Shown here piece after piece: positions 11,537 to 40,418 of a DNA stretch of 64,000 nt (positions are counted from its first letter, which is position 1; every line of letters starts with the position of its first letter). The DNA comes from Manis javanica (Eukaryota; Chordata; Mammalia; Pholidota; Manidae): the NCBI RefSeq assembly GCF_040802235.1, contig NC_133172.1:32445738-32509737 (forward strand). Reading direction: 5' to 3'. Below the pieces are notes generated by a model. The model ran no database searches. It was not told the origin of the DNA and worked only from the letters and a program-made list of their open reading frames with translations. A program made the position numbers and the translations under genes.

Positions 11537-11994
11537 GTTGGGAAATGTGCACACAGGAGGTTTTCCAGGTACAGAGAAGCCAGCTAATGGGGCTGCTGGT
11601 CTTGGGGTTCCTGGAGGGCTTTGAGAGGGTCCTGGACTGGCTGCTTTTCTGGGAAGTCCTCTTCTGGGAAGACTTTGAGGGCCTCAGCCTCCGAGGCCAG
11701 CCCCTCTCCCACTTGGCCAGGTGCCTCCTGGACATTGCAGAATAAAGGTGCTTAGGGCTGTGCACAGCTGTTGTGGCTGTCCAGGAGGCCCACAGCCAGT
11801 GCCTCCAGCTCCCTGGCTGCTAGGACTCCCACTCACCCCACCCAGCCCATGACCTGCAAAATCACCTGCCAGACATCGCCAGGAGACTCCACAGGCACGT
11901 GGAGGGCATGTTGAACCTGGCCCAGGAGCAGGGCTTCTTCAGCCTGTATGAGTGTAATGAAATCATGCTGCCCATCTTTACGTCATCCCAGAGG
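11537..11994 (+). pseudogene. NOD2: NOD2 exon 2 remnant (CARD region), two stops
   Basis: The acceptor (ccccag, AG at 11,535-11,536) and donor (GTAAGG at 11,995) are intact. Translation from 11,539 gives a clear CARD1 sequence (residues WEMCTQEVF, then [28 protein letters not shown]). TAA at 11,743-11,745 ends it after small local indels. TAG at 11,821-11,823 replaces the Trp in the 'GCW' position. The tail ([28 protein letters not shown] and on) remains recognisable to the donor. Net length is three codons short between the first break and the TAG. Confidence 0.93.
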
Positions 11995-12169
11995 GTAAGG
12001 CACTTCAATCCTGTGTAATCAAAATTCACAGGAAAAGGGTGTCTAGTCACCAATACTAATTTGTTTTCATGAAGTCAGCACTGTGGGTCATGGGATTCCC
12101 CCTCAAAACGTAGCCAGGCAGGTAAAAGTTGTTCTAGATTTTGGGTATTACACCACTTCTGATGAGATG

Positions 12170-12395
12170 AAGTGTTGGGTGATAGCCATGGGCTTGACTT
12201 CTGGAGTCAGAAAAATGTAGGCTCAAGGCCCCTCTGTAGTACCTCAAGCTTCTCAGTGGACCCTCTCCATCCTGATTTCTCCTGTCTCAGCTTCCTCATC
12301 TGTAAAAAGATTTGTGTAATGCTTAGAACAGTGTCTAGCACATTGGAAACACTCACTAACATTACCACTGGCCGCTATCAATTCTGTTATTTGTG
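12170..12395 (+). repeat. MIR SINE
   Basis: MIR landmarks: 'gggcttgacttctggagtca', 'tctcagcttcctcatctgta', 'gcttagaacagtgtctagca' and a terminal 'cactaacattacc'. Confidence 0.75.
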
Positions 12396-12689
12396 ATATT
12401 CTGTACTTGTACACTGTTATTGCTGCCTGTTTTAAATTAATAACTCAACAGATCATAAAAATTCATTAAAATAAATTGTATTTAGTAATTAATATAGCAC
12501 ATTTTATATACAAATATAGTTTAAATGCCCACACAAGATTTCTGATACGACATTTCCTTAGATCATAGACATTTGGAGTTAGGATAAAATTTCCTCTGAA
12601 AATGCCATTCCAAAAGAACAGAAAAGTGTCTGTTTGATAGTTCTGAAACTTTTAGTGATCCTCAGGCCTCCTGTGGTGGAGATGGAAGA

Positions 12690-12925
12690 GCCATTAACAT
12701 TCCCACTTTATGGACTGGAGAAGTGGCTTGAGTAAGCTCACAGTAGTAAATGAGAGGGTCAGTGCTGGACTTGAGCCTTGGTTCATTCATTCATCGTTAA
12801 CTTATTATTCATTTTTATTCAGCCGGAGTCTATTTAGATGCCTAGTACCTGCCAGGCTCTGTCATCTTGTGCTCAAGGTACCTTGCACATAGTAGGCACT
12901 CAATGAATACTTAACGATAAATAAG
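12690..12925. repeat. MIR or L2-derived fragments
   Basis: A reverse MIR-like part (an 'actttatggactggag' block) is followed by an L2-like tail ('cttgcacatagtaggcactc', 'aatgaatactta'). Boundaries are uncertain. Confidence 0.45.
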
Positions 12926-13489
12926 CGAATTACTGAATGAATGAATGCAGTGTTAGGATAGGTTGGGTTGGGGGACTTTCTAGTTTTTATTTTTGTCTAT
13001 TTAAAACAAATGCATTTGGTGTGCAAGTGAGTTAAGGTAAGTCTAAGTTGAGTCTGATGGAATAAGCCAGTCTGTCTTCAAGGCTGTTTTAAAGCTGGTA
13101 CTTACAGAGCAGACATGGTGTGGTCTCCTCTGTTAATGCACGTGACACCTACAGCTGTGCCCTGAGCACCATCTCCTGAGCCTGTCCCTCTGGATGCTAC
13201 AGAAGACAGGTTAGCTTTTATACCACCTTGTCTGCTATGATCTGTTGGTGGGGTCGATTCAGTCCACATAGGACGTTACAGGATTGTGTCTTGTCATCTT
13301 TGATCAAGTTTTGAACAGTGTGGTCTGGCCTATATGCTCTGAGGGGTTTAGAGAAGGGGTCTAGAAGGCAGCCTGGAACTATAGGATGAGATAGGACATG
13401 AATAGAGGGAGTATTTAGATTGATGAAGAAAAGAAAATAGGATAACTCATGGGCCAGAGAAGAAATAATGGAAGTCTGAAAGTGTTCAG

Positions 13490-13650
13490 AATCAAACAAT
13501 AATGAGAATATGATTTATAAAAATTTATGGGATGCAACTAAAGTAGAACATAGAGGGAAATTTATAATCTTAATGCTTGTATTTGGAAAGAAGAAAGGCT
13601 GCATTTTAAGGAGCTAAGAATCCATCTTAAGAAAGGGCTAGGTAGACAGC
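13490..13650 (+). repeat. L1 ORF2 fragment
   Basis: The block 'tgggatgcaactaaagtaga' with 'gagggaaatttataatctta' and 'gaaagaagaaaggc' matches the order of a well-known L1 ORF2 region. It is short and broken. Confidence 0.65.
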
Positions 13651-14044
13651 AAAAACATGAGGGCTGGGACTGAGCTGAGCACGTGGAAAGGATGGTAGGC
13701 AAGAGCTTTGAGAGGTGTAGGGGTTGTAGGAGTTTACAGGAATGGGTTTAAGTTTTTAGAATCCAGCTCTCTCTGAGCCTCCTTTGACCCTGGCATTCTA
13801 CCATTCTTTAACCTGGAGGCCTTTGTTCAGTGGCTGAATTTCTGATTCAGTGTGGGTTGCACTTGTGGTATGTCCAACTAACATATTCACCTCCTCCAGG
13901 ACTGCCTTGGCTACTATCATAACCTGACATATAATTTCCTATACAGTGGTGGTTGTCATGGGTTTCAGGTTGGGGATGGAAAAATGCCATGAAATGAGAC
14001 AAAATTAAAGTAAAGAACTAAATCCCTAAGGTACCCATTGCATC

Positions 14045-14235
14045 TGTTTGCTATTGTGTACCGGGCACTATATGTAGCTCTTTACATTTATTTTCTCATT
14101 TCAGCTACACTGCTACCTTCCAAGGGTATAGTGTGGCTATACTGTTCCTTAACAATGAAGAAACTGCCCCAATTTCCCATCTGGGAGGTGGCCTAGCTAG
14201 AATTTGAATCCAAGCCTGTTTGTCCCCAAAGCTTG
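14045..14235 (-). repeat. MIR-type fragment, minus
   Basis: Reverse-orientation MIR features: 'tttacatttattttctcatt', 'acaatgaagaaactgcccc' and 'agaatttgaatccaagcctg'. Confidence 0.55.
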
Positions 14236-14409
14236 TGCTTTTCTCTCTCTGACATGAAATGTGGGGCTTCATGTTGTAAACTTGCTTCGTTGGGCATAAC
14301 CATAGTTAGCAAACCTGAGGCTGTAACACCACCTATCTATCTGACTCATGCAGCCACTGAAGTAGATTGGGCCAGGGTGGCAGACTGAATTGGTTGGCTC
14401 CTTCACAAT

Positions 14410-14640
14410 ATTAGCTTACATATGTTTAACTTGGGAAATATGCCATGACTCCTAAAAAGTATATAATCTCACATGTTATGGTATAAACATGTTCCCATCA
14501 CTCAGGTGAAGAAATAAAATGTTATCAGTACCTTTCTCAATAGCAACCACTAGCCTGATTTATGTGTTAATCATTTATTTGCCTTTCTTTATAGTTTTAA
14601 TACCTTATACAATGATTCTCCAAATAATGTATTGTTTTGT
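14410..14640 (-). repeat. Old L1 3' UTR fragment
   Basis: The 'acatgttcccatcactcag' and 'gcaaccactagcctgat' blocks resemble the old L1 3' end seen at 3.7-4.0 kb. Confidence 0.5.
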
Positions 14641-15344
14641 TTTGAAAAACACAGCATAAACACCTGTGTTAGGAAAGGATAGTATTGCCTTTCCTTCTTG
14701 AATGAAGTCTCCCAGGGGCAGGGAGGCTGACAGGTTCTCAGGGACATGACCTGGTTTTATCTTCTCTGGGACGTTATAACGTCGTCCCTTGCTGGGAAGT
14801 CATTGGGAAAGGGCACGAGTGAGTCCTGGGAAACTGGATTCACTACAGCTGGGGGATCAGTTTGGGTGGCTGTAAGTCAGGGGCCAGATGTCCAGCAGCA
14901 ATATGGTTTGAGGAAGTGGGCTGGCTGCTCTGTATGTTCAGTTGTAAGGTTGCCAAAGGCTCTTTCAGCTTCCAGGAATAGGGCAAGGCCAGATACTTCT
15001 GTGGGTGAAATGAGTGACCTCACTGACCCAGGTAACAGGGGTTGAGAGAAAAAATGATATTAGCTAGTGGTACAGACAAGCCAAATACAGATCAAGTTTA
15101 GAGCCAGGCCTGCCTGCACATCTAGAAGGTAACTACCCTTAACATGTCTGAGTCTTGGGTCACACTATTGCAATCTGTCTGGACTGGTGGCCGTCTACTT
15201 GTTGTACAGAGCTGTCATCCTGAGATTTCCCTTCCTAGTCCTCCTATGTTGGTTCTCCTGTATCCTGAATACTCCATCTTCCTTTTTCTTGGTTTGCTCT
15301 ATTTTGGGAGAGAATATCATTCAGCTAATTCTCTAGGGTGAGGT

Positions 15345-15990
15345 TTTGGAGTTAAACTTTCTAAACTTTTATATATCTAAAAGTTTCTTCCTATTTGATT
15401 GACAGTTTAGCTGGGTATAACATTCTGGGATGGTCATTTTCCTTCAGAATTTTAAGAGTATTATTTCCTAATCTTTCAGAGAATTCCTAGAAGAATTCCA
15501 AAACCATTTTATAATTCTTTCTGGAACCTTGTAAAAGTTTATTTTGGTCCCTAACATTCTGGAATTTCACTATTATGTGCCTTGGAGTTCTTTCATTGTG
15601 CTGGGCACCCAAAATACACTTTGAATCTGGTCACTCATGTGTTTATGTTTTAGAAAGTTTACTTGACTAGCTTGTTGATTATTTCTTTCTGTTTTCTCTC
15701 TTTATGAAACTACTACTGTTTGAATTTTAGAACTCCTGGACTGATTGTCTCATTTCTTCTGCTTCTCATCTATTTTCCATCTCTGTGTCCTTTGGTTCCA
15801 CTTTCTGTATAATACCCTCACCTTTAATATTTAAACCCTTGAGTTTTCATTTTGTTATGATTCCTTTAATTTCCAAGATCTATTTTAAATGTTCCTCATT
15901 GTAGCATCCTGTTTTTGTTTTATGGTTTTGCAATATCTTGTGTTACTTAAGGATTAAAATGATAGGGTGGACTTTTTGGCAGAGGGCGGG
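15345..15990. repeat. Old interspersed repeat, family not assigned
   Basis: T-rich sequence ('tttagctgggtataacattc', 'gcttctcatctattttcca') that I recognise as repeat-like but cannot assign to a family by eye. There is no open frame of note. Confidence 0.4.
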
Positions 15991-16724
15991 GGGAGATTTT
16001 TTTCACCCTGCATAACCTTTTTACCTATAAGTGCTTTCCCCTTTCCCATTTATTTGGCCTCTGTCTTCCATATTAGATGCTTTCTTTGGGAATATGATCT
16101 TTCTTGGTTGTCTGCTCATGACTGAAATAGAGCACTTTAAAACTTAACTGGAAACCCAGAGCGTGCAGATGAATCTTGCGTACCTTGAGTTTCACTGTAG
16201 ACATTTTTTGGAAATGGCAGTGTTTACATCTTAGACCTTTTCTCCTGGGTTGGTTGAGTCCACATTGTAAACTTCACAGACCTCCTGCCTGGGAATAAAG
16301 GTCTGACTGCCAGAGCTGTAGGAGACCAGTGAGTGAGAGAGGGTTGGGCAGTGATAGTGATGCAGAGACATCCCAGCACTCATTTTGCACATGGTCATTT
16401 AACCCTTCTGTTTGGGGTATAATAACTACCTCCTTCATTGTGTCTGGCGCCTGCTGGTCTGATGATCCTGCTTCAGCCTTTATGGAATATAAATCACCAT
16501 ACTTTGCCATGGCAGGGCAGGGACAGTTGCTAGTGGCTTGCACTGGGTAAGGGGAACTGGAGATATGTTTCCAGAAAACTTTGACTCAGTGCTCCTTTAT
16601 TTAATCATTTCCTTTGGTCCAGAGGTACCTGATGCTTTTAATTCTGGAGAACTTTATAGTTCTGTGGTTTTCAACCTGCCAATTGTTGGCTTAGGATTTG
16701 GGTATTTGGGCTCTTCTTAGTCTG

Positions 16725-18590
16725 TTACTGTTCATTCATTGGGCAAATTCTTGAGCACCTACTGTGTGCCAGGCACTCTTCTAGGTATTGGAAATATCAA
16801 AGAGTAAAACAGACAAAAGTCCTTGTCCTACAGATGCTCACATTCAGTGGGGGGGAGACAGACAGTAAACAAAAGGGAGCAAAGACAGGAGAGTATGTTA
16901 AAAGGTGATATGTACTGTAGAAAATAGCATGGGTTTTGGGGGTAGAGAGTTGCAGGAGACAGAGGGTTGGTGATTACAATTTTAAATAGGATAGTCAGGG
17001 AGTCCACTTCACTGGGAAGGTAAAATTTGAGCAAAGACTTAAAGGAGGTGAGGGCTTTAGTCACGTGGGTAGATGGGAAAATGGAATTGCAGGCAAAGGC
17101 CCAGAGGTAGGAGCTTACTTGATGTTTTTAGGAGACAGGAGGCTCATGTACTGAGTGGAATGATCAAAGTAAGAGAAGTAACCAGGGTCTGGATGGTTAT
17201 AGACAGCACTTTTTTTTTTTTCCGGGGTCCTGACCTTATTCCAAGTTCTCAGTTCACATCTGCCTCCTGCATGCCAGGGCTGTACTCCCTCTTCCCTATG
17301 CATTAAAACCAGCCCTCCAGCCCCAAGGACACATACCTCCATGTGACACTCCCTGGGCTTCGGTGTTGCCTCATGAATGATCCCTCTGGCTTTAGGTTCC
17401 TACTTTATTTCTGGCTCAAAAAGTCACTCCGTTCCTTCTCTCAAGCTTATCTATGAATTACAAAGAACTTGACTATATTTGGGGGCAGAGAGGGCTAGTA
17501 GGGCAGAGATGGGAATTTTCTGCTATTAATTTAGGTGCTCGGAGGACTTCCTCTGAATGATGTAAAGCCCTTGAAATTTATTCAAGTTAGCTTTATGACC
17601 CAATATATGGTTTATTTTATTAACTGTTTGTGTATTTAAAAAGAACGTCTATTCTGTCATTGTTGGCTATTGTGTTGATGACAAGCTAGTTGTGTTGCCC
17701 ACACTTACATGCTAACTGCTCTTCTATTTCTATTCGAGAGGAATGTGCTGCTGTCTAGACAGCACTTTTTTCTGTTTGGGGCCTTGCAAGTTACTGTTGG
17801 AATTGGGCTTTTACCCTGAGAAAATGGGGAAACTGGTGGGATATTTGTAACAGGAATAGTGTGATCTGGCTTTTATTTTTAAAGAATTGCACTCTGACTC
17901 TGGTGTTGAGATTAGATTGCAGAGGCAGGGAGACCAGTTAGGCAGCCTCTGCTGTTTCCAGGTGAGCAATGATGGTGGCTTGGATGGTGGCAGTAGAGAA
18001 GGTAGGGAGAAGTGGTAGAATTTTATAGCTGTGCGTCCATCACAGTATACACTGGCCATGTGTGTCTACTGAGTACTTGAAATGTGGCTAGTCTACACTG
18101 AGATTGTTTCAAAGACTTTGTACGAAAGAATGTAAAATACCTCAGTGGTGTTTTACATTGATCACCTGTTGAAATAGTAATCGTTATATTGGGTTAAATA
18201 AAATACATGATTAATTTCACCAATTTCTTTTTACTTTTACAAATGTGGCTATTAGAAGGCTTAAAATTACACATGCATCTTGCATTGTATCTGGCTTTAT
18301 ACCTCTACTGGACCGTGCTGTTCTGAATATGCTTTGAAGGTAGGGCCAAGAGGACTTGCTGGTGGATAACAGAGGAGGGGTTTCAAGGGTGACTCCCAAA
18401 TTCTGGTGCTGAGCAACCGGAAGGATGGAGTGGACATAAGCCGAGATGAGGAAGGTTGTAGGTTTGGCTCATGCATGTAGATAGGAGTTTAGTTTTAGAT
18501 CCATTCAGGTGAAGGTGTTCATAAGACATCTAAGTGGAAATGGTGGTAGGCAGTTGAGAGCATGTCCACGGCTCAGGGCAGCAATTTAAC
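16725..18590 (-). repeat. Long L2 LINE fragment, minus strand
   Basis: It begins with 'gagcacctactgtgtgccag' and 'cattcagtggggggg'. It passes the 'ggatagtcagggagtccac' and 'gcaaaggcccagaggtag' blocks. After interruptions at about 17.2-17.8 kb, it continues with 'gcactctgactctggtg', 'gagaccagttaggcagcc' and 'cataagacatctaagtgg'. It is one of six same-strand copies of this module in the window. Confidence 0.65.
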
Positions 18591-18963
18591 TTCCATATGA
18601 AAATGTGGGAGTCACAGGCAGAGATGGTGTTTCAAGCCATGAGACTCGATGAAACCACCTCTCTCCCAGATGATTTCCTGCTTCCAGAATTGTTTCTCCT
18701 ATCCTTTTAGGTTTATAGGTTTATGCCTTTTTTTTTTTATTATTATCCACTCTCTTAGTGGGTTTTGAGAGGAAGACAGATTGGATGTGTGTGTTCAAGT
18801 GTTCACTTCACCACCCAATGCTGTATTGACTTCTTTAAATTCATCTTGCTGTTTGTTTTCTGGCCTTTTATTGTGGTGGAAGAGAGATGCCTATGAAATG
18901 GCAGTAATCTGTAGAAACCTTTATCAGACTTTCTAAAAAGATAATGACTTGCTTTTTCCAAAG

Positions 18964-19065
18964 GAAGAAGCCTCCTTGATCTTGCCACAGTGAAGGCAAA
19001 TGCGTTGGCTGCCTTTCTTCTACATGTTCAGGAGCTACCAGTCCCTTTGGCCCTGCCTTTTGAAG
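18964..19065 (+). pseudogene. NOD2: NOD2 exon 3 remnant, one base deleted
   Basis: The acceptor is at 18,962-18,963 and the donor GTATAT at 19,066. The frame that keeps the protein similarity reads [31 protein letters not shown]. However, only eight bases (gaagaagc) precede 'ctccttgat' where nine are expected after a phase-0 exon 2, so splicing shifts the frame by one base. One codon (Gln of 'LLQHV') is also missing. The similarity is certain; the exact deleted base is inferred. Confidence 0.88.
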
Positions 19066-19109
19066 GTATATATATGTTCTCAGTTCATGAGAAAATGAAA
19101 AGGCTGCAC

Positions 19110-19270
19110 AGATTCATGGGTAACAGCAAGAACTCCAGGGTGAGACACATCAGTTAGAATCCCACTTACTGGCTGTGCAAGCTTCCCTGACTCCATTTCC
19201 TCATTTTAAGGTTAACACCACCTGTGTCTCATTAGGCTGTTGGGAGGATTAAAAAGATTACCGTGTGTAA
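19110..19270 (+). repeat. MIR SINE
   Basis: MIR landmarks: 'gttagaatcccacttactgg', 'ctgtgcaagcttccctgac', 'tccatttcctcattttaagg' and 'ttgggaggattaaaaagatt'. Confidence 0.7.
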
Positions 19271-20734
19271 TATTAGGGTTAGCTTTTATGACTTCCTGCA
19301 CTGCAGAGTGATAACTGGAGCTACTGTGTATTGGGGCTAATATGGGAATTCCTTACTAGGGAAACACTCACTGTCAATAATGAAAAGATGTGGAAACACT
19401 TTTTGAGATAGGGCTGGTATCTCCCTGTCTCTGGAGTTTAGCTACTCACTATCAGAAACTCAAGAACCAAATAGATAATGTGGTATCTCTGATTGTGCAT
19501 GGTCACCAAGCCAAACCCAAGGATGGGAGAGGCTTGGAGAGCACAGTTTGAATATCCCAGGCATCTTGTCCTTTATGGCAACCCTGAAAAGGAGGAGGTT
19601 ATATTTTCTCTGCCTTGCAGATGTGAAACTGGGGCAGGTAAGTTAGGTGACAAGGTAAGGGAGGATGATCTGGTTCTAGACTGTTGCCACCTATGCTCTC
19701 TCTTTTCTTGGGAGAAGAGATCTTCAGTTGTAAAGAGAGGACACACGTCTGATGTGTCTTGTTCCTGCATCAGTCACTGTAGGGAAAGCTCATGGGCACC
19801 AAGGGGCCCTGAACTGTGGATGGTGTTGGCAGATGGATTTATCACCCTGAGCCCTCTGCTCTGGGCAGTGAGCACATCTGTGGGAAGCCTGTGCATGGTA
19901 TCTGGATGTGTACCATCTCACCTGAGACCAGACCCCAGTGCACAGCACAGAGCATGGTGCCAGGCTTGGTCCTTGGTTAGTATCATCAAGCACAGTTGGC
20001 CATTAATGCATTGTAATGCTGTGACATGGTGACATTGCTAAAGGTGTTGATTGACACGTTTGTTTTTAAAATGAGAGATAATTATTTTTTTAGAGAATCA
20101 TTTTTTGATATCGTTTTTGATATCAATGGCTGTATAACCTACATTGGAAATTGGGGCATTACAGAGGAAAAAAAATGTATCAAAACAGAAACGTGGAACA
20201 TCTCCTTTATGTGACTGCAAATACAGCTTTGACATGCTAAGAGTGCTCTGTGAGAATTTCTTGTTAGCGTTTGAGTTGAGAACCAGTGGGCCAGTACTAG
20301 GTTGGGGCAGTGAGGCCTGATGCTCTGAGGTCCTCCAGCCCTGGGGCTTCAGACAACCATTTCGCCATTTTCTTAAAAGGGAACTAACCCCTGACACAGG
20401 AAGTGGTTTGCTCATACTGGTATGAGGATGATTAAGAGCAGCAGTCCATGAACACACTCTCACTGTAGAGAGTCGCATGAACATGATGCGGAAGTGGATC
20501 TTGATGAGGGAATCTTGTCCAAGTGCTTGACCCGGACACCCCAGTGACCCTGAGGCCATCTTGTGCCAGGTCCACCCAGATAATCTAGGATAATCTCCCT
20601 ACCTGAAGGTCTTTAGTTTCTTCACCTCTGTCTAGTCCCTCTTGCAATAAGGTAATATATTCAAGATCCTGAGAATTAATTAGGATGTGAGCACCTACAG
20701 GGAGCTCCTGTTGTCTCTACTACACCCACCAATC

Positions 20735-20960: not shown

Positions 20961-21129
20961 ACTTAAACTTTCTGTTTCCCTTTAGAAAGATACAACTGAG
21001 GCCAAGTGGTAAAAGGACTTATCTATGGCTACCTAACCAATATGGTGGGACAGGCATCAGAGTGCAGGTCTTCTGACCCCAGCCCAGCACACCTTCTAAT
21101 CTTCTCTAGCTCTTCCTGATGTCAGTAAT

Positions 21130-21312: not shown

Positions 21313-21454
21313 GCTCCGTGAGTGGAGAGCCAGGACTGGCGCCTGCTGGCTACTCTCCCCGGTGTGTGCCATCATGTTCCTCCAAGGCTGCTCTCTGGCC
21401 AGATCCCATCTTCCCCTTGGTCTCATCTCAGGTGCCTCTTCTTCTGTCTTTCAG

Positions 21455-23239
21455 ATGCTACACGTAGGAGATACATGTCCCAGCTGAGGACCACAGTATC
21501 TGCTCAGCCTTGCTTTCTGAGTACCTATGATGGGACAGAGAATCTTTGCTTGGAGGAAATATATACAGAGAATGTTCTGGAGATCCAGACACAGGCAGGC
21601 ATGGCTAGACCCCTGCAGAAAAGCCCCGCTACCCTAGGTCTGGAGGAGCTCTTCAGCATCCACGACCATCACAGTGAAGATGCAGATGCCGTGCTGGTGG
21701 CGGGTGAGGCAGGCAGTGGCAAGAGCACATTTTGGCAGCTGCACCTGCTGTGGGCTGCGGGGCGGGCCTTCCAGGAAGTTCTCTTCATCTTTGCATTCAG
21801 CTCCTGGCGGCTGCAGTGTATGGCAAAACTGCTTCTGTGCAGACACTGCTCTTCGAACATTGCTGTTGGCTTGACCTTGGCCACCAGGACGTCTCCCAGG
21901 TCCTCCTTGACCACCCTGACCGCCTCCTCTTAACCTTTGATGGCTTTGATGAGTTCAGGTTCAGGTTCACCAATCATGAGCATCACTGCTCTCTGACTGA
22001 CCTCACGTCTGTCCAGATTTGCTCTTCAACCTTCTGTAGGGTAACCTGCTCACAAATGCCTGCAAGGTGTTGATCAGCTGTCTAGGCACAGTGACAGCAT
22101 TCCTCAGAAAGTACGTGCACAGCCTCAAGGGTTTCTTGGAAGAGGGCATTGAACCATACCTGAGAAAGTGCCGTTGTGAGTCTGGGGTGGCTGACTTGCC
22201 TTATTCGCCTGCTCAAAGCGACCTCAGCCATGCATGGTTTGTGCCACCTTCCTGTCTTCACACGGATAGTATCCAAATGCCACCAGGAACTGTTGCTGTG
22301 TGATGGGCGGTCCCTGAAGACCACCACAGATGTATACCTGCTGATCCCACAGTATTTTCTACTGTATGCGTCCCTACCAGACTCAGCCCCCTGTGGTCTG
22401 GAGCCCAGTCTGCTTGGAGGCAGGCTTCCACCCTCCTGCACCTTGACCGGCTGGCTCTCTGGGGCCTGGGCATGTGCTGCTATGTGTTCTCGGCCAGGCA
22501 GCTCCAGGCAGCACATGTTGACAGTGAGGACATTGCTGTTGGCTTCCTGGTGCATGCCTGAAGCGCTACGCCTGGCACTGCTGCTCCCTTAGAATGCCTA
22601 CATATGACTTCTCAGTGCTTTTTGCAGTGTTCTATCTCATGCTCAGTGCTGGCCTGCAGCTGTCCTCCTTTAGACACCTCTGCAGTTGTCGCAGGCCAGG
22701 CAGCTTGCCGCTGGCCACACTGTGCATGCAGGGCTCAGAGGGCAAGGAGGGCAGCATAACATCTTTGCTGCAGGAGGCTGAGCCACACAACCTCCAGATC
22801 ACAGCAGCCTTCCTGGCAGGACTTTTGTCTCAGGAGCACCGGGGCTTGTGGTCTGAGTTCCAGGCTTCTGGGAAGGCCCTGCTTCAGGGCCAGGCCTGTG
22901 TGCAGTGGTGTCTGGCCCCTGGTCTTCACAAACACTTCTACTCTATCCCACCAGCTGTGCCAGGGGAGGCCAAGAGCATGCATGCCATGCCCAGGTTCAT
23001 CTAGCTCATCTGGGGCCTCTGTGAGATGCACAAGGAGCGGCTGGCGCAGGAGGCTGTGCATGGGCTAAAGATTGGGCACCTCAAGCTGACATTTCGCAGC
23101 ATGGGCCCAGCCAAGTATGCTGCCCTAGCCTTCGTGCTGTGGCACCTCTGGTGGCCCGTGGCCCTGCAGGTGGACACTCTGTGGGTAACACTGGCATGGA
23201 GCGGCTGCTGCCTTGCCTCAGGGTCTGCAAGGCTCTTTA
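21455..23239 (+). pseudogene. NOD2: NOD2 exon 4 remnant (NACHT), six frameshifts, three stops
   Basis: This is the large NACHT exon, about 1.79 kb. The acceptor (tttcag, AG at 21,453-21,454) and donor (GTGAGG at 23,240) are kept. Walker A is intact (GEAGSGKST, 21,703-21,729) and Walker B is legible ([10 protein letters not shown], about 21,927-21,956) but in another frame. Breaks in order: -1 near 21,829-21,836; -1 near 22,017-22,021; TAG at 22,037 (Gln position); an in-frame 9-base loss near 22,115; +1 near 22,191-22,198; -1 near 22,426-22,433; TGA at 22,559; -1 near 22,615-22,625; TAG at 23,002 (Trp position); about -4 near 23,174-23,178. The frame of each intact block agrees with the sum of the preceding shifts. 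Similarity to NOD2 is continuous, from the '[21 protein letters not shown]' block to the 'HLKLTF' block. Confidence 0.95.
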
Positions 23240-27081: not shown

Positions 27082-27163
27082 CTTGTGAGATAACAATACT
27101 CAGACTGAGGTATCTGCAAGCTCCTTGAACATGCCGGTCACTGTGAGCAGCTGCAGAAGTTAG
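27082..27163 (+). pseudogene. NOD2: NOD2 exon 5 remnant (LRR), acceptor lost
   Basis: LRR-coding sequence is recognisable from 'gataacaatact' to 'gagcagctgcagaagtta'. One base is missing in the 'aatatctcag' region (here aatactcag, about 27,095-27,101), which shifts the frame. Where the acceptor AG should be, the sequence reads ttttttaa. The end reads 'ttagtttaag', so the donor is weak or displaced. The exon is unlikely to be spliced normally. Confidence 0.8.
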
Positions 27164-27387
27164 TTTAAGTCTGGCTGGGCCATGGCATTGACCCCAGGTC
27201 CCCAACCTCACTCCAGGCCATACCCGTGGGGCCACAGCTATGAGCAAGATGATGGGCCGGGACAGGGGTGTTTGCATGGCTGGCAGGCCTGGGGTGAGTC
27301 CTGTCCCTGAGGGAATGGGCTACCCTGGGTTTGAGTGGCTGCTGTCCACTGTGCTTTGTCTCAATGTGTCCTCTCAGAATTTTCCAG

Positions 27388-27470
27388 TCTGTCAACAACA
27401 AACTATCTGATGGCTGTGCACCCTCTGTGGCCAGGCTCCTTGCATGCTAGTGGAGCTTCCTGGCACTGAG
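27388..27470 (+). pseudogene. NOD2: NOD2 exon 6 remnant (LRR), stop and deletion
   Basis: The acceptor (ttttccag) and donor (GTGACC at 27,471) are present. The exon is 83 bases where the LRR unit is normally 84; one base is missing near 27,389-27,393. TAG at 27,448-27,450 replaces an Arg codon (the AGG after 'CTT GCA TGC'). The 'aacaacaaact' and 'gatggctgtgca' blocks identify it. Confidence 0.85.
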
Positions 27471-29696: not shown

Positions 29697-29779
29697 ACTG
29701 GGGAATAACCACATCATGGCGGCAGGAGCCCAGGTGCTGGCCTGGGGGCGCAGAGCCAATACCTCCCTGCAGTTCCTAG
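29697..29779 (+). pseudogene. NOD2: NOD2 exon 7 remnant (LRR), donor shifted
   Basis: The acceptor (ccttccag) is good. It reads [27 protein letters not shown], a near-intact LRR unit. The end reads 'ttcctaggttgg'. Either the exon is 83 bases with GT at 29,780, giving a frameshift on splicing, or the normal 84-base exon has lost its GT. No internal stop is seen. Confidence 0.88.
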
Positions 29780-31547
29780 GTTGGATTCTGGGGCACACGG
29801 GTCAGTGTGAAAGGCTTTGGGGCCTGTGAAGATTTAGGGGCAGGCGAAACTCTTCAGCCAGAATGCCCAGAGGCAGCCCGGGCTACAGTGGGGAGGCAGA
29901 CAGGGAGGGAGTGGGTAGCCTTGGCTGCCTCAACTTGCTTTTCACTAGATAAACAGGAAGTTCAGGATGTCTGGGTTAGGGGAGGGCAGTGCCCATGAGC
30001 TGGGGGCAGGAAGTCCGCTGGTCCTCATCATGGGTGCTGAGGCTGTGCTTCTTGCCTTTGCATGTACACTGGAACTGCTTGGGAGCTTCTGAAGAACTAA
30101 TGAAATGAAATATCCAGAGGCAGGGCCTAGGAATCAGTAATTTTATAAAGCTTGACAGAGGATGTGCAGCCAGGGGTGAGAGCAGAGGAAAGAGAAGGAG
30201 CTAGGGAAGGCTGGAGACTGGACTCAAGGTGGGCTGGGGCTTTACCATGTCCTTCGGAGCTCTTGCTTGCTCTGGGGCCATGCCTGGCCTGGCAGGGAAG
30301 GGAGAGGAATCAGACACAGGCTGGGAAGGCAGACCCACAGACCGCCGGGCTCAGAGTGGGCCTTCCTTGGCAGAGCGACCACCTCCCAGTGTTGCACCTG
30401 TGTAGGCCCCTGCAGCCTGTCTCCTGCCCTGGTATGAATTGGGTCCATTTGACAACAGCTGGGAGTTTTAAAACCCGAGAATAACCTTCGGGCCTTGGCA
30501 TTCCAGCCCATTTCACAGGCCAGCAAATTGCCACAGCTCCATTTGACCACAAGTGGGACTATGTTCCTGGGGAGATCAGCACCATTTCCAGGTTGCATTC
30601 GTAGCCACATAGAGTCTAGAGCAAGGGTGGTCCAGGCCCCACTGAGCTCTCTCCTGCTTGTGGTCACATTTGGTGTATCTGGGGTATATATCTTTCAACA
30701 CCTGTTAACAGCACCTGTCTGCACCAGGCACTGTTTAAAACTCCCAAACATTATCATATGATAAAACTGTTCTAAATACTGCTTTTTTAAAGATTTAACA
30801 ATATATCTTTCACATCATTATGACCTCGTTTTTAAAGACTAGCTGCTTAGTCTTTGACTGGTTGGATGTCCATAATCTGTTTAATTGGTCTCAGGTTGGT
30901 GCACACTTATGTCCAGGCTTTTGTTTTTACAGTGTCATATCCCTGGAGCACAGAGCAGTGTTGGTCAAATAGCCAGAGGTCAACTATTTACCTAGTGAAA
31001 GTGCAGGGCACATTCTAGTTCAGCTGTCTGCTCACTTGTGCACGTACAGGTCCAGGCTAACTTACCATATGTTAAAGAGCTGGGTCACAATGTCTGAGCT
31101 TGGCTCCATTTTTGATGTTTCCAAATTATGGTGGGTCTGAAGAGGATGACCCAGAAGGCGAAGGAGTGAGACACTGTGAAGGAACTGGGGATGTTAAGAA
31201 GGAGCAAGAGATGAAGAGCTGGCTTGTGGAAGAAGAATGAGACTTGTTCCGGGTGGTCCCAGAGGGCAGTCAAGGGCTTGTTGGTACAGTTACTAGGAAG
31301 TGGGCCACTACCATTCTATAAGTCTGAAGCAGCTGAAAAATGTGAGTGAAGTTTGGCCATATCTCCAAAGAAATGGGGGCAGGTCCACTTTGCTGGAGCC
31401 TAGGAGCCCCACTGAGACTTTTCTGGAATTGGGTGGAATTCTTGCCCCTCTGGCAGGGACCATAAAGTGGAGGGGCACTATTAATGCATGTCTACCACAT
31501 AGTTGGTGCTCACTGACTCACTGACAACTATCTGTTGGCCTTTTCAG
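29780..31547 (+). other. NOD2 intron 7
   Basis: About 1.8 kb. A hAT-like fragment lies at 30,040-30,155. Nothing else is recognised. Confidence 0.5.
30040..30155. repeat. hAT-type (MER20/MER58-like) fragment
   Basis: The 'acactggaactgcttgggag', 'ggcagggcctaggaatcagt' and 'aattttataaagc' blocks follow the expected order of this group. Confidence 0.5.
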
Positions 31548-31631
31548 TTTCTGGGGAATTGCGGTGGGTGGCAAGGGGACCCAGGCCTTGTCTGAAGCCT
31601 TGGGTGGTCACCAGAGCTTGACGTGGCTCAG
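31548..31631 (+). pseudogene. NOD2: NOD2 exon 8 remnant (LRR), open
   Basis: The acceptor (ttttcag) and donor (GTAGGC at 31,632) are present. The length is 84 bases, the normal LRR unit. The best frame reads FWGIAVGGKGTQALSEALGGHQSLTWL with no stop. Several consensus residues are changed; for example, the LRR Asn of 'GNRVGDEG' is lost. Confidence 0.88.
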
Positions 31632-32111
31632 GTAGGCTTCAGTGTCTCTTCTCCCATTGCCATGCGGAAGGCAGTGTGAGGAGGGAAGAACCTGGGCCAG
31701 TTTAGACGGTCTTTGAACTTTGTTTTTACTCTCCTCTGATAGGCAGTGGGATGTGAAGGAAAGACCACTGGATTTGGAGTCAGGACACTTGAGTCTTTCT
31801 GGATGTCCCTTCTTCCATTAAGGATCTTGATTCCTTGTCTGTAAATTGAAGATCTTGGGCTAATCAGATACATTTTATCTCAAGGACCAATTCCAATCTA
31901 GTAGTGGCTGCCCAGGACAATGTGTTGGGAAGGATTATGAGGCTGCTCCTGGGCTTAATGAAAAAGTGCACGGTAATCAAATAGTGATGTCTGAAATGGA
32001 GCGGACTAGGGAGTGGGGCTCTGTGTGTCTTGCATTGTGCCCTTCATGGCTTAACTTTTCTCTGAGGTCCCTCCCAGCTCTGACATGTTTTTATTCCCTG
32101 ATTACATGCAG

Positions 32112-32196
32112 CCTGGTGGGGGGATGACGTAGGCAATGTGGGTGCTGAAGGCTTAGCACTGATGTTGGAAAAGAACGTGGCACTGGAAAAACTTTG
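32112..32196 (+). pseudogene. NOD2: NOD2 exon 9 remnant (LRR), one base inserted
   Basis: The acceptor (acatgcag) and donor (GTGAGT at 32,197) are intact. The exon is 85 bases instead of 84; the extra base is in the G-run and following region (about 32,117-32,130). The remainder ('gtgggtgctgaaggc', 'ttggaaaagaacgtggcact') clearly matches the LRR unit. Confidence 0.86.
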
Positions 32197-32439
32197 GTGA
32201 GTTGGAGGGATTCCTTGCCCTGGGCAGGCAGATAACAACAGCCTCTGCTCATTCCCTGGCCTTATCTGTGAAAGCAGCTGTGTGGGGAAGACAGCAGTGG
32301 ATGCCTGAGTGACTGGGAGATTGTATTTATCCTTCTATGTCTGGGTGGCATGATGCTTATAGAGCCTAGCATATAGGTGCTAATTCTTTTTATTTAAGTA
32401 TTTTTAATTGGTTTGTTGTTTTTTTTCCTGCCTCCATGT

Positions 32440-32670
32440 GGCAAAAGGTTTGAGAGCACAGACTCTGGAATTGAGCAGGCTCAGCTTCAGGGCCTGCTGT
32501 AATCTTTGGCAAGTTAATCTCTGAATGTTAGGTTTTTTACCTGTTAAATGAGGGTATGGCTACTTCTGACTATAAAACACTGCTGTAAGAATTGAATGAC
32601 TTAATGCCTGTAAAGGGCTTAATATCATGCCTGGTGAAAGTGTAAGCGCTCCATAAATATTAAGTTGTCA
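32440..32670 (+). repeat. MIR SINE
   Basis: MIR landmarks: 'gagagcacagactctggaat', 'ggcaagttaatctctgaatg', 'ttaatgcctgtaaagggc' and 'gtaagcgctccataaatatt'. Confidence 0.8.
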
Positions 32671-33149
32671 TGGTGACAGTATTACTACGGTTATTATTGA
32701 TGTTGCAGTTACTCTAGTACTACAAGTGTACTACTAATACTCTATTATTTCAAAGTGAATGTGAGTGGCTCAGAAACTGGATGTCAGAGTCAGGGTCACT
32801 TTGGAAGGTGGAGTGGAGTTCACAGGAAGTTAAAAGATGAACCATGAATCATTCTTATACTGGTGACCTGACACTGATTGCAAATTTTCCATCCTTTAGA
32901 TGCCACTAGTGTGGTCTTCTTATGACATGTTCTGGGCAGTTCTAAGTTATATCAGGGAGATAAAATGCTGATTATTTTCCAGGAAGCAGAAGGGCACTGA
33001 AACATATGAGCATTGTCACAAAATGAATATCGTGGATGGCCCTTGGCTGTTGGCAGGGCCCACTAGCTCTGCCAGTGTACCACTGATTGCATCTTGATTG
33101 GATTTTACCACTTGGAATTTCTTGTTAGAGGAATGCCTCATTGTGAGTG

Positions 33150-33430
33150 TATCAGTTCTGACTACATTAGGCTGCAAGTCACAGAAAACCTCCATCTGCA
33201 GTGGCTTAAACCTGTAAAGGATTCTTTAATATCTGGGGGTGGGTAGTATAGGGCTGGCATGGTGGCTACATGGGGTCAGCAGGAGTCTGGACCCTATCTC
33301 TTGGTTCTATCACATCCTCAGTATGTGGCTTCATCCCTGTGATTGGTTGCCTCATGATCACAAGATGGCTGCTGCCTCTGCAACTCTACATCTGTACTCC
33401 AGGAGTCAGCCTGTACATCCAGGAAGGACG
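33150..33430. repeat. Old interspersed repeat, family not assigned
   Basis: The 'aggctgcaagtcacagaaaa', 'cagtggcttaaacctgtaaa' and 'gatcacaagatggctgctgc' blocks are typical of a mammalian-wide repeat that I recognise but cannot name. Confidence 0.45.
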
Positions 33431-33877
33431 AAAGGTATAGGCTAGCTGGTTTTCTCCCCATGAAGAGCATTTTCCTTGGAGCCCCACCTATCAGCTTCTT
33501 CGCTTTATGTGTTAATGTCCATGTGGATGTCACTTGGCTGCAGTGTTGAGTGGGAAATGTAGTTCACCAAGCCTGTGGCTGCCCCAAATGAAATTAGGCT
33601 TCCATTAATAAGCAAGAAAGGGAAAGTGGTTATTGGGTAGCTGGGACATGAGGGAGCTTCTTATATGGAGGAGCTCTGGGGTGAATTCTCTGCCAAAGGT
33701 GCCTCTGGAATCCAGAACCCTCACACTTTGTTTTATCCTTTCTTTCTTTCTCTGTAAAAGTGGATTTTCAGATGCTGTATTTTCTAAATGGGAGGCAAGT
33801 AGGTTAATCTTTACTGACATCATCTTTCATTATGAATGTTACCATATCAACTGGGCTTTCTCTTTTATTCTTGCCAG

Positions 33878-33961
33878 TCTGGAGGAGAACCATTTCCAGG
33901 ATGAAGGTGTGTGTTCTCTTGCCAAAGGACTCAAGAGAAATTCAAGCTTAAAAGTCCTGAA
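33878..33961 (+). pseudogene. NOD2: NOD2 exon 10 remnant (LRR), intact
   Basis: The acceptor (cttgccag) and donor (GTAAGG at 33,962) are good, and the exon is 84 bases. It reads [28 protein letters not shown], a fully conserved LRR unit with no lesion. Confidence 0.92.
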
Positions 33962-34686
33962 GTAAGGAACCCTTAGGCAGGAGCTGGGACAATAATGACT
34001 GGCCTTGGGGGAGAGTTTTACTGAATCAGAGATCTGGACAGCTTCCTGCCTGGTTAATCACACAAGGCAACCTGGTAGAAAATAGCTGGTATTGTCTGGG
34101 TTCCCCCAAACACAGGCAGGCATTCCAGTCCAAGTTGTTTACTTCGGAGGTGGTCCCAGCAAACACTGGTGAGACAGTAGTGAAGTGCAGTGGGGAAGGG
34201 CGAGTGTGTGGTCTAGCCTGTTATCATCCAGGCAGGTGGGCCTCAGAGGTGCTGGGGAGCTCCAGGATCCTGGAACCAATCGAGGCATGAGGCTGTGGGG
34301 GTGTGTATCTACCGACTACCTATCTTTCACTGGCTGATGTGTGCTTGTAGGAATACTAATTTTCTAGCATTTCTGGCTTGCCCTGCACATGGCTGAGCAT
34401 GCTCCCAGGGTCAATAGAATGTCCTCAGGCAGAGAGTGGAGGTCTTCGCAGCAAGCAGCCCGCAGAGTTGGAGCTGGAAGCTGAGGGAATAGAGCAGGGC
34501 GCTGAGAGCATCTGCTCCAGGGCTTTCAGGACTTGCCCTCCTGCTCTCCAGGGGCCCTTTCTGGCTCAGGCAGGAGAATTCTTTTCATGGTCACCTCCAG
34601 TGGCGACTCCTGTTGCACTGTGGAGGCAGGCATGCCTGTGCTCATTCTCATGTGCATTCCTTCCTTCATTTGTCCTGCATTCACAC

Positions 34687-35122
34687 TATGGTAGTCCTCC
34701 TTTATCTGTAGAGATATGTCCCAAGACCTCCGTGGATGCCTGAAACCACAGATAGTACCAAACCCTATATATTCTAAGTGTTTTCCTATATGTATATACC
34801 TATGACAAAGTTTAATTCATAAATAAGGCACTGTAAGAGATAAAAAAATAATAAATAAAACAACTATAACAATATACTGTAGTAAAAGTTGTGTGAATGT
34901 GGTTTGTCTCTCAAAATACCTTATGTACTGTACTCAATCTTCTGATATTGTGAGATGTTAAAATGCCTGCGTGATGAGATGGAGGTGGATGATGCAGGCA
35001 CTGTGAGGCAGCATGAGGCTGCTGCTGACCCTCTGACCAAACGTCAGGAGGAGGATATGAGCTTCTGGACTGTGGTGGACTGCGGGAATTGAAAGTGTGT
35101 ATAAGGGGGACTACTGTGCATT
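34687..35122. repeat. Tigger-type nonautonomous DNA transposon
   Basis: Terminal inverted repeats are visible: 'gtagtcctcctttat' at 34,691 pairs with 'ataagggggactac' near 35,101. Inside are the 'gtggatgcctgaaaccac' and 'caatatactgtagtaaaagt' blocks typical of TcMar-Tigger (MER44/Tigger7-like) elements. It has no transposase reading frame. Confidence 0.7.
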
Positions 35123-35149
35123 CATCCACTTGTGTACTGATAGGAGAAA

Positions 35150-35850
35150 TGTTTCTGGAGCACTCTACCAGGTGCTGTTTGAGGCACTGAGGATAGACTG
35201 GTAAAAAGGACAGAGCAGGCCCTGCTCACATAGCTCTTATATCCTAATGGGAGAGACAGATAATGAACAACTAAACAAACACATAAATAAGATCATTTCT
35301 CTAGTAATAAGGGCTCTAAAAAGAATGCAAAAGGGAACTTATGAGGAGTGGCTGGAGAGGGTGGCATTACTGCCCCTTGGTCAAGGCCTCTCTGGGAAGG
35401 TGGTTTGAGTTGTATCCTAAATAACAAAAAGGTTCCTGCCAAGCTGAGGTCTCAGGTAAGCGCCTTCTGGGTGGGCAGAAGAGCAAGTGCAAAGGCCTTC
35501 TGCAGAAACAAGCAACTGGTTTTGACAACAGGAGGACCTATGTGGTCAGACCATAGTAGAGGGTGGTGTGGCACAGAGGTGGGGGGGGGCTGGTCGCATA
35601 GGTTTCAGGTCGTGGGAAGGATTTGGGGTTTTAGTCTAAGGGCACTGAGAAGCCTTCAGAGGGTTTTAATCAGGACAATAACATGATCTGATTTACATCC
35701 TAAAAAGATCGTGCTTGTTGCTTTGTGCCAAACAGGTGAGAGAGGGGTAAGACAGGAGCGGGGAAACCAGTCAGGAGCTCCTGCAGTTGGAGAGCACTGG
35801 ATCAGGTGGAAGGCAGTGGAGAAAGCTGGTAAAAGGGGCAAGAGCTCATG
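35150..35850 (-). repeat. L2 LINE fragment, minus strand
   Basis: The 'cctaatgggagagacagat', 'aggcctctctgggaaggtgg', 'aagtgcaaaggccttctgc' and 'caataacatgatctgattta' blocks are in L2 minus order. Confidence 0.7.
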
Positions 35851-36639
35851 GAGGCCCTATGGGTCTGGGAGCTGGAGGGCTGGGCAGTGGCAGTATTGGT
35901 GGAGAAGCAATCAGGGGACCTTTGGTGGTGGACTCGGAAGGCAAAGCCCCAGTGCCACAAGGAGAGGGACAGTTGATGTCAGCAGGAGTCCAGTTAGTGA
36001 TCATCAGGGGCTTGTGCCCATGTTCTTGAGGCTGGCACCACACCAGCCATGGTGCCAAACTTCAGAGGGACATCAGGGCACCATCAGATGGCTCCTTCTG
36101 CTAAAGGAGGGTGGCATCTACCCTGGCAAATGTGTCCTAGGGAAAACACTTGCCTTCAGAGACAGGCAGACAGCTGCCTCGGGAGAGCGTCTGCTTCGCT
36201 GCCAGCCCGCCAGCCACACTGGCAACACTTGTTTGTGTTGCTTTGCAGGGCTTGGCAGTTGCCAAATGTTTGGGGAAAACACTTCCACTCTTCACATGGG
36301 GAAACTGGGGTGGGAGGCCTGGGTGAAGACTGGATTTGTCTGAGCTGGGATGCCAGGCTTTGCACACAGGGATGCCTTTGGCAATACTCAAGTTTATTAT
36401 TGACCAGGTGTGGATGTGGTAAATTTGTCCTCCCTCATTGTCAGACTTACACCAGTTGACCTCAACAGATGCCAGGTAATGACAGCAAGGATTATCCCAT
36501 GCTGCCTTTTGGGGATTCATATAATTGAGCACCACTGAATATCATCCCGCACTGCTTCTCTATAAAAATCAAGCTTCTTATATAGATTAAAAAAAAAAGA
36601 TGCCTACATCCTTCTTTTTCCAGGCATATCTACTGCCAA

Positions 36640-36850
36640 GCGTTGGTTGAGAGTGTGGGCTCTGGTGTCTGACGGCTTGGGTTTGGACCCCAGCTCCACC
36701 ATGACTAGCTATTTCTCCTTGGCATTGTGCTTCAGTCTCAGGTGTAAATAGAGATACTAATTGGACCCTTCCGTCAAGTTGGAAGCACTCACTGACACGA
36801 TATAGGTAACCAGCTGGCACATAGTAAGAGTTCAATAAATACGGGCTGTT
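36640..36850 (+). repeat. MIR SINE
   Basis: MIR landmarks: 'gagagtgtgggctctggtgt', 'ggcattgtgcttcagtctca', 'ctggcacatagtaagagttc' and 'aataaatacgggctgttatt'. Confidence 0.8.
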
Positions 36851-37089
36851 ATTATTATTTGTGTTGCCTTAGGTCAGCTTCTGAGAAGGTCCTGAATGTG
36901 TGGAGGTGAAGGACGGGTGGTGGGGATTATCTAGAGGCCCAGCTCTGAGCAAAAGAACACCTGGGCATACATGGCCCCTTCCCTGCTGTTCCTGACAGCG
37001 TATCATCTTCCCCTTCCCAATCTCATATTTTCTTGAATCCATGTCCCTAGGCCCCCAAGGCCTCCCAGATGAAAATATTGCTGTTCATT

Positions 37090-37270
37090 GATTATTTTCT
37101 ATCAGTTAAGTGTGGTGCCAAGTGCTTTAGAATGTCAGTCTTATGTTTAATTCTTTTACTCCATGCAGCAGTTACTCTCTAAGGTCCATTTGACAGATGA
37201 AGAAATTGGGACTAGTTTGTAGGAGATCAAAAGGAAGCCTTGGGGTAAGCTGGATTTAAACTCAGGAAGT
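37090..37270 (-). repeat. MIR-type fragment, minus
   Basis: The 'gtgtggtgccaagtgcttta', 'tgacagatgaagaaattggg' and 'ggatttaaactcaggaagtg' blocks are in reverse MIR order. Confidence 0.6.
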
Positions 37271-37557
37271 GTGGCACCCAGCAAGTAAAATACACATACT
37301 TAAACACCTTCTGGAGTAGCTACTTAATTAGATAAATGAAGCTGGTGAACAGAGGAGAGAGGGGTGCCTTTTTTCTTCGTGTTGAGCCTTTATGCACGAG
37401 TTCCTTGGGAATCTCAGACAGGAGAGGGGCATGTTGAGGGGGCAGGTGGGCTTCCGGATGCCGGCCAGCTCCCAAAGCCTCATTTGATTGGAGAGGCTCT
37501 GGAGGAGAACTGCGAACCATGCCTCCTTGAAGCTCACCCTTCCATCTTCTTCTCCAG

Positions 37558-37641
37558 GCTGCCCAACAACTGCATCACCTACCTTGGTGCAGAAGCCCTC
37601 CTGCAGGTCCGTGAGAGAAATGACAGCATCCTGGAAGTCTG
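37558..37641 (+). pseudogene. NOD2: NOD2 exon 11 remnant (LRR), intact
   Basis: The acceptor (ttctccag) and donor (GTAAGG at 37,642) are intact, and the exon is 84 bases. It reads LPNNCITYLGAEALLQVRERNDSILEVW. In humans this LRR exon carries the Crohn-disease frameshift near residue 1007; that base context is unbroken here. Confidence 0.92.
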
Positions 37642-39117
37642 GTAAGGCCCCTGAATAGGCCTCTTTATCTCTCTGAACCTCAGTTTTCCAATCTGTAAAA
37701 GAGAGCTAGGGAGAGAGGAACTTGAGCAATTCTAAGACCCCTTCTGGCTCTGACATTCAGTGGTGTTCTGCAAGTGACAGATCTGATTCTGTCTGGGAAA
37801 GATGTGTCCATGTCTCTAAGCAGGAACCAAGTCTTTCATTTTTAATCATGAGTATCTCTGTTTTAGGTAATCGTGTAGGAATCAGGGCATGGTTGGAGAG
37901 TAAAACAGAGACAAGAGCTCAACTCCTGCTCTCCTGGGCATTGTTATACCTGCCTTGACAGGTCAGGGCTGTAGTAACAGACCCTGTGCAGGTCTGGATG
38001 GAGGCTCCACAGGATGGGAATTGCTGCACAGTGTCTCCAAGAACTTCTAATTAAAAGCCATAAACCATCATGTATTTGAAAAAAGCATCAAGTCACAGCC
38101 TCAAAGATTGATTTTTCTTCTTTCCAGGGATCTATTTATCGCTCAGATAATAAGTAGAAAGTTTCCCTGGTTTAACGTGTTAGGAGTGAATGTCACTATG
38201 TTTTAGGCAGTAGGCTAGAAACCAATGTTTTAAAAATAGGAGATTCCCTGTAACAATCTGATATTTTAGGGTTTTCTCAAAATAGCTGGCCACTCTGGAC
38301 CCGCATTCAAAATGCCAGTAATTAAGCAGAGTAGAGGAAGGGCTGAGCCCACTCAGCTGGGTTAACCAGCTCAGGCTGATCACAGCCCCAGCAAAGGCCC
38401 CTTTGGTTGCTGTTTATTACTTGCCTCATCCCTGGAATCTTGTGACCCCTACTGTAAGTATGCAGACTTGACCCTCCCCCTAAAAGTATATTAAGGCAGC
38501 TGCAACTGTAGATATCAAATGGTGAAGTTAAAATATAAAGACTTCTAAAAATCTGCCTTGTAATAGAGAGATTTTTCTTTCTGTATGACTGTGTAATTCC
38601 CATAGCCTGTGAGGTCCTCAGAACCTGGGAAGAGTATGTTTTTTGTTTTTGTGTTTTTAATCATTGCACAGTTCTAAGAAATTCTGTGATCCAGACATTC
38701 TGAGTTCCAGACATTCTGTGTCTGGGGGGAGCAAGCCAGCATCAGGTTGATATTTTAAGGGTTCTGATGTTATTTGCTGCCTGTGGGTGGAGCTTGGGAG
38801 GGCTTCAGGATTTGCTCAGTACATTCTTGACAGATTCTGCTGTTGCCTGAAAAAGAATTGAGGCCTTGGGGAGTCAGGGCTGGCTGGCTGGATTCTCTCT
38901 GCAGAGACCTGAGGTCTTGTTTCATTGTGCACAGTGATTCACAAGCTGCATGGCTGACAGAGGGTAAAATCAGTGTAGACTTTCCTCCCAGGTGAGCTGC
39001 AGCTGGGCTGGGGGGCCAGGCCATCCAGGAATGGGTTCAGAAAGTGGGAGCTTCGGATTGCAAGCACTGCTCTGGTTCTGTCAACACTCAAACCTCTCTT
39101 TGCTTTATCCCCTTTAG
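37642..39117 (+). other. NOD2 intron 11
   Basis: About 1.5 kb of unique-looking sequence; no gene or named repeat is recognised. Confidence 0.5.
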
Positions 39118-40418
39118 GCTCAGAGGAAACACTCTCTATCCAGAGGAAATTGAGAAGCTCAGCCATAGGGACACCAGACTCTTGCTTTGATGTCTCTAGG
39201 CCAGCATTCATCTCAGTCTGTTTGTGAAAAGTCCAGGAGTTTGGATCTCAGAAGATGGATTACATTTGGCAGCAGCCCATCCAGATGGAGCCCTGTTCTG
39301 CCCAGGGTGAGCACAGTAGGTCACCTTTGTTCTGGCAGAGGAAGGAGCATCAGTGCCCTTTGGGGCCCACGTTCTGAAAGCCTGCTTTTGCCATCAAGTT
39401 CTTCGCACAATTCAATCTGTGGAATGTAGAAGAGGGGCCGTCCCCCTCTGCATGATGGGACCAGCCTCCAGGTGATCTGATGTGGGTCAGGGGGCCAGCA
39501 ATGTTACTGAGTGTCTTGGGTGTAGAGACTTGGGCCCATGTGAAGGACCCCATCCACCCTGCTCACAAAGGGGAGGGGCATTCAGGAAGCCCTGCCATGT
39601 TTCACTCATGGGTCATTCCTCCAGGCTGTTCCCCACATCCAGTTCCTCCTCACCCTGGACCCTGCAGGACCCTGCACACGGCGCTCCTTTGTGGTTGAGG
39701 ATTTCGAATACTGGTGTTTTCAGCTTTGCCATTTCCCTGATAACTACACCCTGCTCCCTATCCTCACCCAACGTTTACCCCTCAACATGCAGAGTGCAAA
39801 GGGCTACTTTACCCTGCTCTCCTTTGTGATACTTAAGACTAATGAAAGGGGACACATGACAGCCATTTGTTCCCCAAAACAGTCTAGATTTTGAAGATTT
39901 TTTCACAACTGGTATCACACGTGGACTTTTATTTCCAATGAAATCAATTACTCTTCAGTTAAGCCTTTGGAAACAACCCCCCATTTCAAATGCAGCTTTT
40001 AAAAATGGATCTGGGCCAGCATTTCTAACAGCCCCACTGGGTCTTTGGCTGATGCCTGTGAACTGAACTCTTTGACAGCAGACTTCCAAAATATATTCAT
40101 AAGAGATGGTTCAGTGTTGTTTGTGCTAGAATGCTTTAGGATATAAAATTATGGATCAAAAGTTTACAGGGGCAAAATCAAAGCCTTTCCTTAAAAGGCC
40201 AATGTTTTTCTGGGTTTTTCAAAATGATGCATATTGAAGCCTTTGTAAACTGTCAGGTACTGTGCAAGTGTTATTATTTAAAACATTATTATTTGTGAAA
40301 ACTGGGGAATATTTATAAACCACTTAGTGTTATTCTCCCAAGCTTATGCTTTTATGGAAAAAACATGACCATGAATTTTATGCTGTAAATAATCAGAAAG
40401 AAGAAAACTATTGAGTCA
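39118..40418 (+). pseudogene. NOD2: NOD2 exon 12 remnant (C-terminus and 3' UTR)
   Basis: The acceptor (cctttag) is good. It reads LRGNTLYPEEIEKLSHRDTRLLL and ends at TGA 39,188-39,190, the normal NOD2 C-terminus. About 1.2 kb of 3' UTR remains recognisable (for example 'gtcacctttgttctggcaga', 'ggacttttatttccaatgaa' and 'atgctgtaaataatcagaa'). Where an AATAAA signal is expected near 40,400 the sequence reads 'aagaagaaaac', so the canonical signal seems lost. Confidence 0.9.

Follow-up and report, generated by a model that had tools for sequence, protein, structure and literature searches.

The NOD2 locus beside CYLD

The window analyzed here is a 64-kb stretch of contig C17 (C17:32445738-32509737) that carries exons 2 to 12 of NOD2 on its plus strand, in order, with CYLD downstream (Table 1). 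The gene extends from an ATG at 11545 to the normal TGA at 39188-39190. This map, covering 11545-39190, agrees with a sequence-only reading of the same DNA, which had described exons 2-12 lying in order next to an intact CYLD; CYLD is intact as far as it was tested, that is, over three coding exons.

Table 1. NOD2 and CYLD features in the window, with positions counted from its first base.
Feature	Position	Strand	Observations
NOD2 exon 2 (first coding exon in dog, CARDs)	11545..11994	+	donor GTAAGG intact; -2 frameshift ~11734 exposing TAA 11743; -1 frameshift ~11774; TAG 11753; TAG 11821
NOD2 exon 3	18964..19065	+	open, minus one codon
NOD2 exon 4 (NACHT, winged helix)	21455..23239	+	frameshifts ~21829, 22017, 22196, 22431, 22619, 23173; TAG 22037, TGA 22559, TAG 23002; several in-frame codon losses
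NOD2 exon 5	27083..27160 (limits approximate)	+	expected acceptor without AG; -1 frameshift ~27098; TGA 27086 and TGA 27106, both at dog Arg positions
NOD2 exon 6	27378..27470	+	TAG 27448; 93 nt by the AG/GT limits used vs 84 in exons 7, 8, 10 and 11
NOD2 exon 7	29697..29780	+	open, 84 nt; expected donor reads GG/TT
NOD2 exon 8	31548..31631	+	open, 84 nt
NOD2 exon 9	32112..32196	+	85 nt; +1 frameshift near start exposes TGA 32125
NOD2 exon 10	33878..33961	+	open, 84 nt
NOD2 exon 11	37558..37641	+	open, 84 nt
NOD2 exon 12, coding part	39118..39190	+	open to normal TGA
CYLD, three coding exons	54799-55302, 56473-56775, 58980-59084	+	intact, no stop

The best named matches to the window query in the protein collection were mammalian NOD2 proteins (among the best 120 of 352 matches). 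The exon 4 region matched the PDB chains 5irl/5irm (with 5irn) in three frames (7.3e-62, 9.8e-121 and 3.5e-42), each frame covering different stretches, with no other PDB matches. These chains carry the label "Uncharacterized protein" and we take them to be rabbit NOD2. The matching of different stretches in different frames indicates a single exon broken by frameshifts, and three-frame matches of this strength, together with the named NOD2 matches, exclude chance. Relative to the intact NOD2 of dog, alpaca and bear, the exon and domain order is the same, but the reading frame of the receptor is gone. Judging from its letters, the donor of exon 7 may have been lost or shifted by one base.

The CYLD exons have open frames and share 95-98% identity with the CYLD of dingo or pig, which argues that the lesions next door in NOD2 are not general assembly noise. 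SNX20, which we presume from human gene order to lie upstream of NOD2, gave no significant match within the 64-kb window when a human stretch served as the query. Two CpG islands were found, at 5501-6500 and 47501-48500; the latter is probably the CYLD promoter, and the former perhaps the promoter of the upstream neighbor. A tandem array of three 53-base units lies at 51383-51543, upstream of the CYLD coding exons, and a direct repeat of 147 bases (62508-62654 and 63062-63208, 96% identical) was the sole pair above 80% identity in a self-comparison of the window. A MIR sequence had 20 matches in the window and the head sequences of CanSINE, ERE1 and Bov-tA had none there; this fits a genome with few young SINEs but does not prove a pangolin.

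Lesions and loss of constraint

Frameshift-aware alignment of the window to the NOD2 of dog (a dingo record, P0074), alpaca (P0002) and polar bear (P0078) returned nine frameshifts and 16 stop calls, identical whichever of the three served as reference. Half of the stop calls (8 of 16) arise at the ends of exons from split codons read on into the donor site; these were not counted as lesions. A tenth frameshift, a +1 in exon 9, was missed by the aligner and was seen from the length of that exon, 85 nt vs 84 nt. The gene therefore carries 10 frameshifts and eight stops in the ancestral frame relative to dog, alpaca and bear NOD2, which puts a number on the "many frameshifts" of the sequence-only reading.

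The letters of all eight ancestral-frame stops were rechecked. Five of the six stops named earlier, at 11821, 22037, 22559, 23002 and 27448, belong to this set; the remaining one, at 11743, is real only in the frame read from the ATG, where it is exposed by the -2 frameshift near 11734. Three stops in the ancestral frame, at 11753, 27086 and 27106, had been overlooked. Translation from the ATG at 11545 yields 66 readable residues and ends at TAA 11743. In the NACHT region a 203-residue open frame, in the stretch 21322-21933, still contains the nucleotide-binding loop GEAGSGKST in readable form.

Loss of constraint was measured at invariant sites, those identical in 48 intact placental NOD2s. 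The set behind them comprised 52 proteins, hand-picked to cover orders from the 120 listed (of 352 matches); three marsupials, kept as the outgroup, did not enter the count, nor did one rhino record, whose C-terminus is aberrant. Of 298 invariant sites, 44 (14.8%) are changed in the window, whereas the intact NOD2s, each left out in turn, are changed at 0-8 of 311-319 (at most 2.5%). In the NOD2 tree the read-through of the window formed the longest end branch, 0.36 vs a median of 0.094. Identical aligned codons shared with dog, alpaca and bear NOD2 numbered 710, 718 and 702 of 999, respectively. The age of relaxed constraint calculated from the invariant sites is about 32 My (23-42), a rough figure that depends on an assumed neutral rate.

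Own-genome search and a dispersed copy of exon 2

A functional second copy elsewhere in the genome, a check that the sequence-only reading had proposed, was sought by searching the animal's own genome (2.56 Gb, 63 contigs) with dog NOD2, and none of the 22 matches is an intact NOD2. Nine are pieces of the window locus. The best of the 22, on contig C6, has 34% identity and a 671-residue open frame, and is judged from its sequence to be NOD1. One match at C3:61673363, 63% identical to dog over residues 27-155, has a TAA inside, and the remaining 11, at 25-42% identity, are presumably other NLR genes. Since a NOD1-like exon was picked up at 34% identity, an intact NOD2 exon 4 should have shown up; no intact second copy was found in this search with dog NOD2, assembly gaps remaining possible.

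The match on contig C3 is part of a 381-bp copy of NOD2 exon 2 at C3:61673361-61673741 (L029:4862-5242). The copy corresponds to window positions 11621-12001, comprising most of exon 2 and seven intron bases including the donor, and is 95.0% identical to the window without gaps. Because no gap separates the two, both frameshifts of exon 2 are common to the copy and the window, as is TAA 11743. The window stops TAG 11753 and TAG 11821 both read TGG in the copy. No poly-A tail was seen by eye at the copy, and no target-site repeat longer than five bases was found.

A copy that has the frameshifts and lacks the two TAG stops makes it simple to arrange the lesions in time: the frameshifts appear to predate the copying, and the stops to postdate it. 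The simplest order would start with the exon 2 frameshifts, followed by the copying and last by the two TAG changes in the original, and gene conversion could have disturbed it. With 19 differences in 381 bases and an assumed rate of 2.2e-9 changes per site and year, the copying dates to 11.7 My, or at the same assumed rate to 10.0 My if the first three differences, at the edge, fall outside the true copy. It seems probable that the C3 copy is a fossil of the decaying gene, taken when NOD2 was already dead by its CARD-exon frameshifts and had not yet gained the two TAG stops. The best candidate for the lesion that first inactivated the gene would then be a CARD-exon frameshift, and the exon 2 stops would have arisen within roughly the last 10-12 million years, given the assumed rate.

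Lineage, interpretation and the known loss in pangolins

NLRP6 of the same genome (L007) matches that of Manis javanica at 100% identity (rounded) across the 463 residues searched; the other 119 proteins listed reach at most 75% (best 120 of 1369 matches). Residue by residue, there are two differences from M. javanica within 119-701, at 167 and 597; the other 44 lie at the ends of the match, 96-118 and 702-734, stretches that are presumably intron. The NOD2 tree places the window within Laurasiatheria (SH-aLRT 96 and 98 in two runs) but not in a particular order. AU tests of four placements rejected none of them (Carnivora, p 0.31; rhino, 0.41; Artiodactyla, 0.52; bats, 0.10), and artiodactyl sisterhood scored slightly better than the free NOD2 tree. 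CYLD, for its part, is so conserved and so clustered that it does not identify the species.

The window is almost certainly the NOD2 locus of a pangolin, either Manis javanica or a species very close to it, in the form of a decayed unitary pseudogene beside CYLD; with its frameshifts, stops and damaged splicing, it no longer encodes a readable receptor. The naming of the species is based on NLRP6 and on agreement with the published M. javanica lesions (PMC8560141). The sequence-only reading had called NOD2 a unitary pseudogene, and this holds: the gene is in its usual place beside CYLD, its lesions are many and independent, and no intact second copy was found. The reading frame of the receptor would have been lost in an ancestor and would have drifted since, with no mechanism proposed beyond decay; the CARD-exon frameshift would have come early and the two stops of that exon later. 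From the state of the gene, the animal is predicted to be without NOD2-type muramyl dipeptide sensing, and the related sensor NOD1 appears to keep an open NACHT exon.

If NOD2 were in fact intact and the lesions were errors of assembly or sequencing, one might expect frameshifts like these, eight of the 10 being the loss of one base, one the gain of one base, and all shorter than three bases, the type of error made in long reads. Against this, the adjoining CYLD exons are without any lesion, the eight in-frame stops and the changes at invariant sites are substitutions, the exon 2 frameshifts recur in the C3 copy, and the published M. javanica assembly has its lesions in these same exons (PMC8560141), so that error is an exceedingly remote explanation. 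It is very improbable, too, that the window holds a decayed duplicate and a working NOD2 lies elsewhere in the genome. A partial copy of exon 2 does exist on contig C3, but that piece is just 381 bp and has a stop, whereas the window has the orthologous place by CYLD and all coding exons with their introns. No other own-genome match comes near NOD2 (25-42% identity), and none of the protein rows exceeds 74% identity to the query (best 120 of 352 matches), with no intact protein of such a copy listed.

There is next to no chance that the locus keeps a role through a shortened product, be it the CARD fragment of 66 residues or the open NACHT stretch at 21322-21933. In favor of such a remnant, no stop interrupts the ATG frame for 66 codons and GEAGSGKST is readable within the 203-residue open frame; against it, the CARD fragment ends within the CARD exon, the acceptor of exon 5 is gone, and the share of invariant sites lost is 14.8%, vs 2.5% or less in intact genes.

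Because the window is pangolin DNA and NOD2 loss was published for pangolins in 2021, the loss is already known (PMC8560141). According to the main text of that paper, three pangolins (M. javanica, M. pentadactyla and Phataginus tricuspis) have a NOD2 pseudogene, and the gene is intact in all other mammals checked; in M. javanica, exons 1, 3, 4, 5 and 8 are hit by frameshifts and premature stops, and one exon 1 frameshift is common to the three species (Salova et al., 2021). The authors inferred a loss in the common ancestor of pangolins, with which our estimate for relaxed constraint, 32 My (23-42), is not in conflict, and they note that loss-of-function mutations of human NOD2 are tied to Crohn's disease (PMC8560141). 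As far as the main text describes it, their pangolin pseudogene shows no essential difference from the one reported here: the gene and locus are the same, and both have a CARD-exon frameshift with a premature stop. The lesion-bearing coding exons in the window are likewise 1, 3, 4, 5 and 8 (5 of 11), a match at the level of exons that takes the paper's exon 1 to be the CARD exon. The window thus provides a second source confirming that pangolins are without a readable NOD2, and makes an assembly artifact very unlikely. In the main text of PMC8560141 the terms "second copy", "partial copy" and "paralog" are absent and "duplicat" appears in just one reference title; what the present analysis contributes is a small addition, namely the exact lesion list in another assembly and the dispersed exon 2 copy that orders the lesions.

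In the literature on NOD2 loss, surveyed through titles and the starts of abstracts of open-licence papers, no second mammal was reported, and the NOD2 passages of a survey of 43 carnivorans tell of no NOD2 loss (PMC9739989). Pangolins are also reported to have lost IFIH1, cGAS/STING, TLR5, NLRC4, NAIP and many NLRPs (PMC8560141; see also PMC7225364, PMC7291609, PMC10776870). These losses belong to the same lineage and are the same kind of event as that of NOD2, but concern other genes and ligands.

A winged-helix family search of the genome returned eight places. By their sequence features these look like NLRP12, NLRP3, possibly NLRP14, NLRP1, NOD1, NLRC3, NLRP6 and the broken NOD2. An NLRP-type NACHT exon at C19:99103067-99106234 (L003), which we take to be possibly NLRP14, has an open frame of 563 residues and is partly masked. 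NLRP14 has been called disrupted in pangolins (PMC8560141). The eight NLR winged-helix matches are in line with the small pangolin NLR set described in the main text of the same paper.
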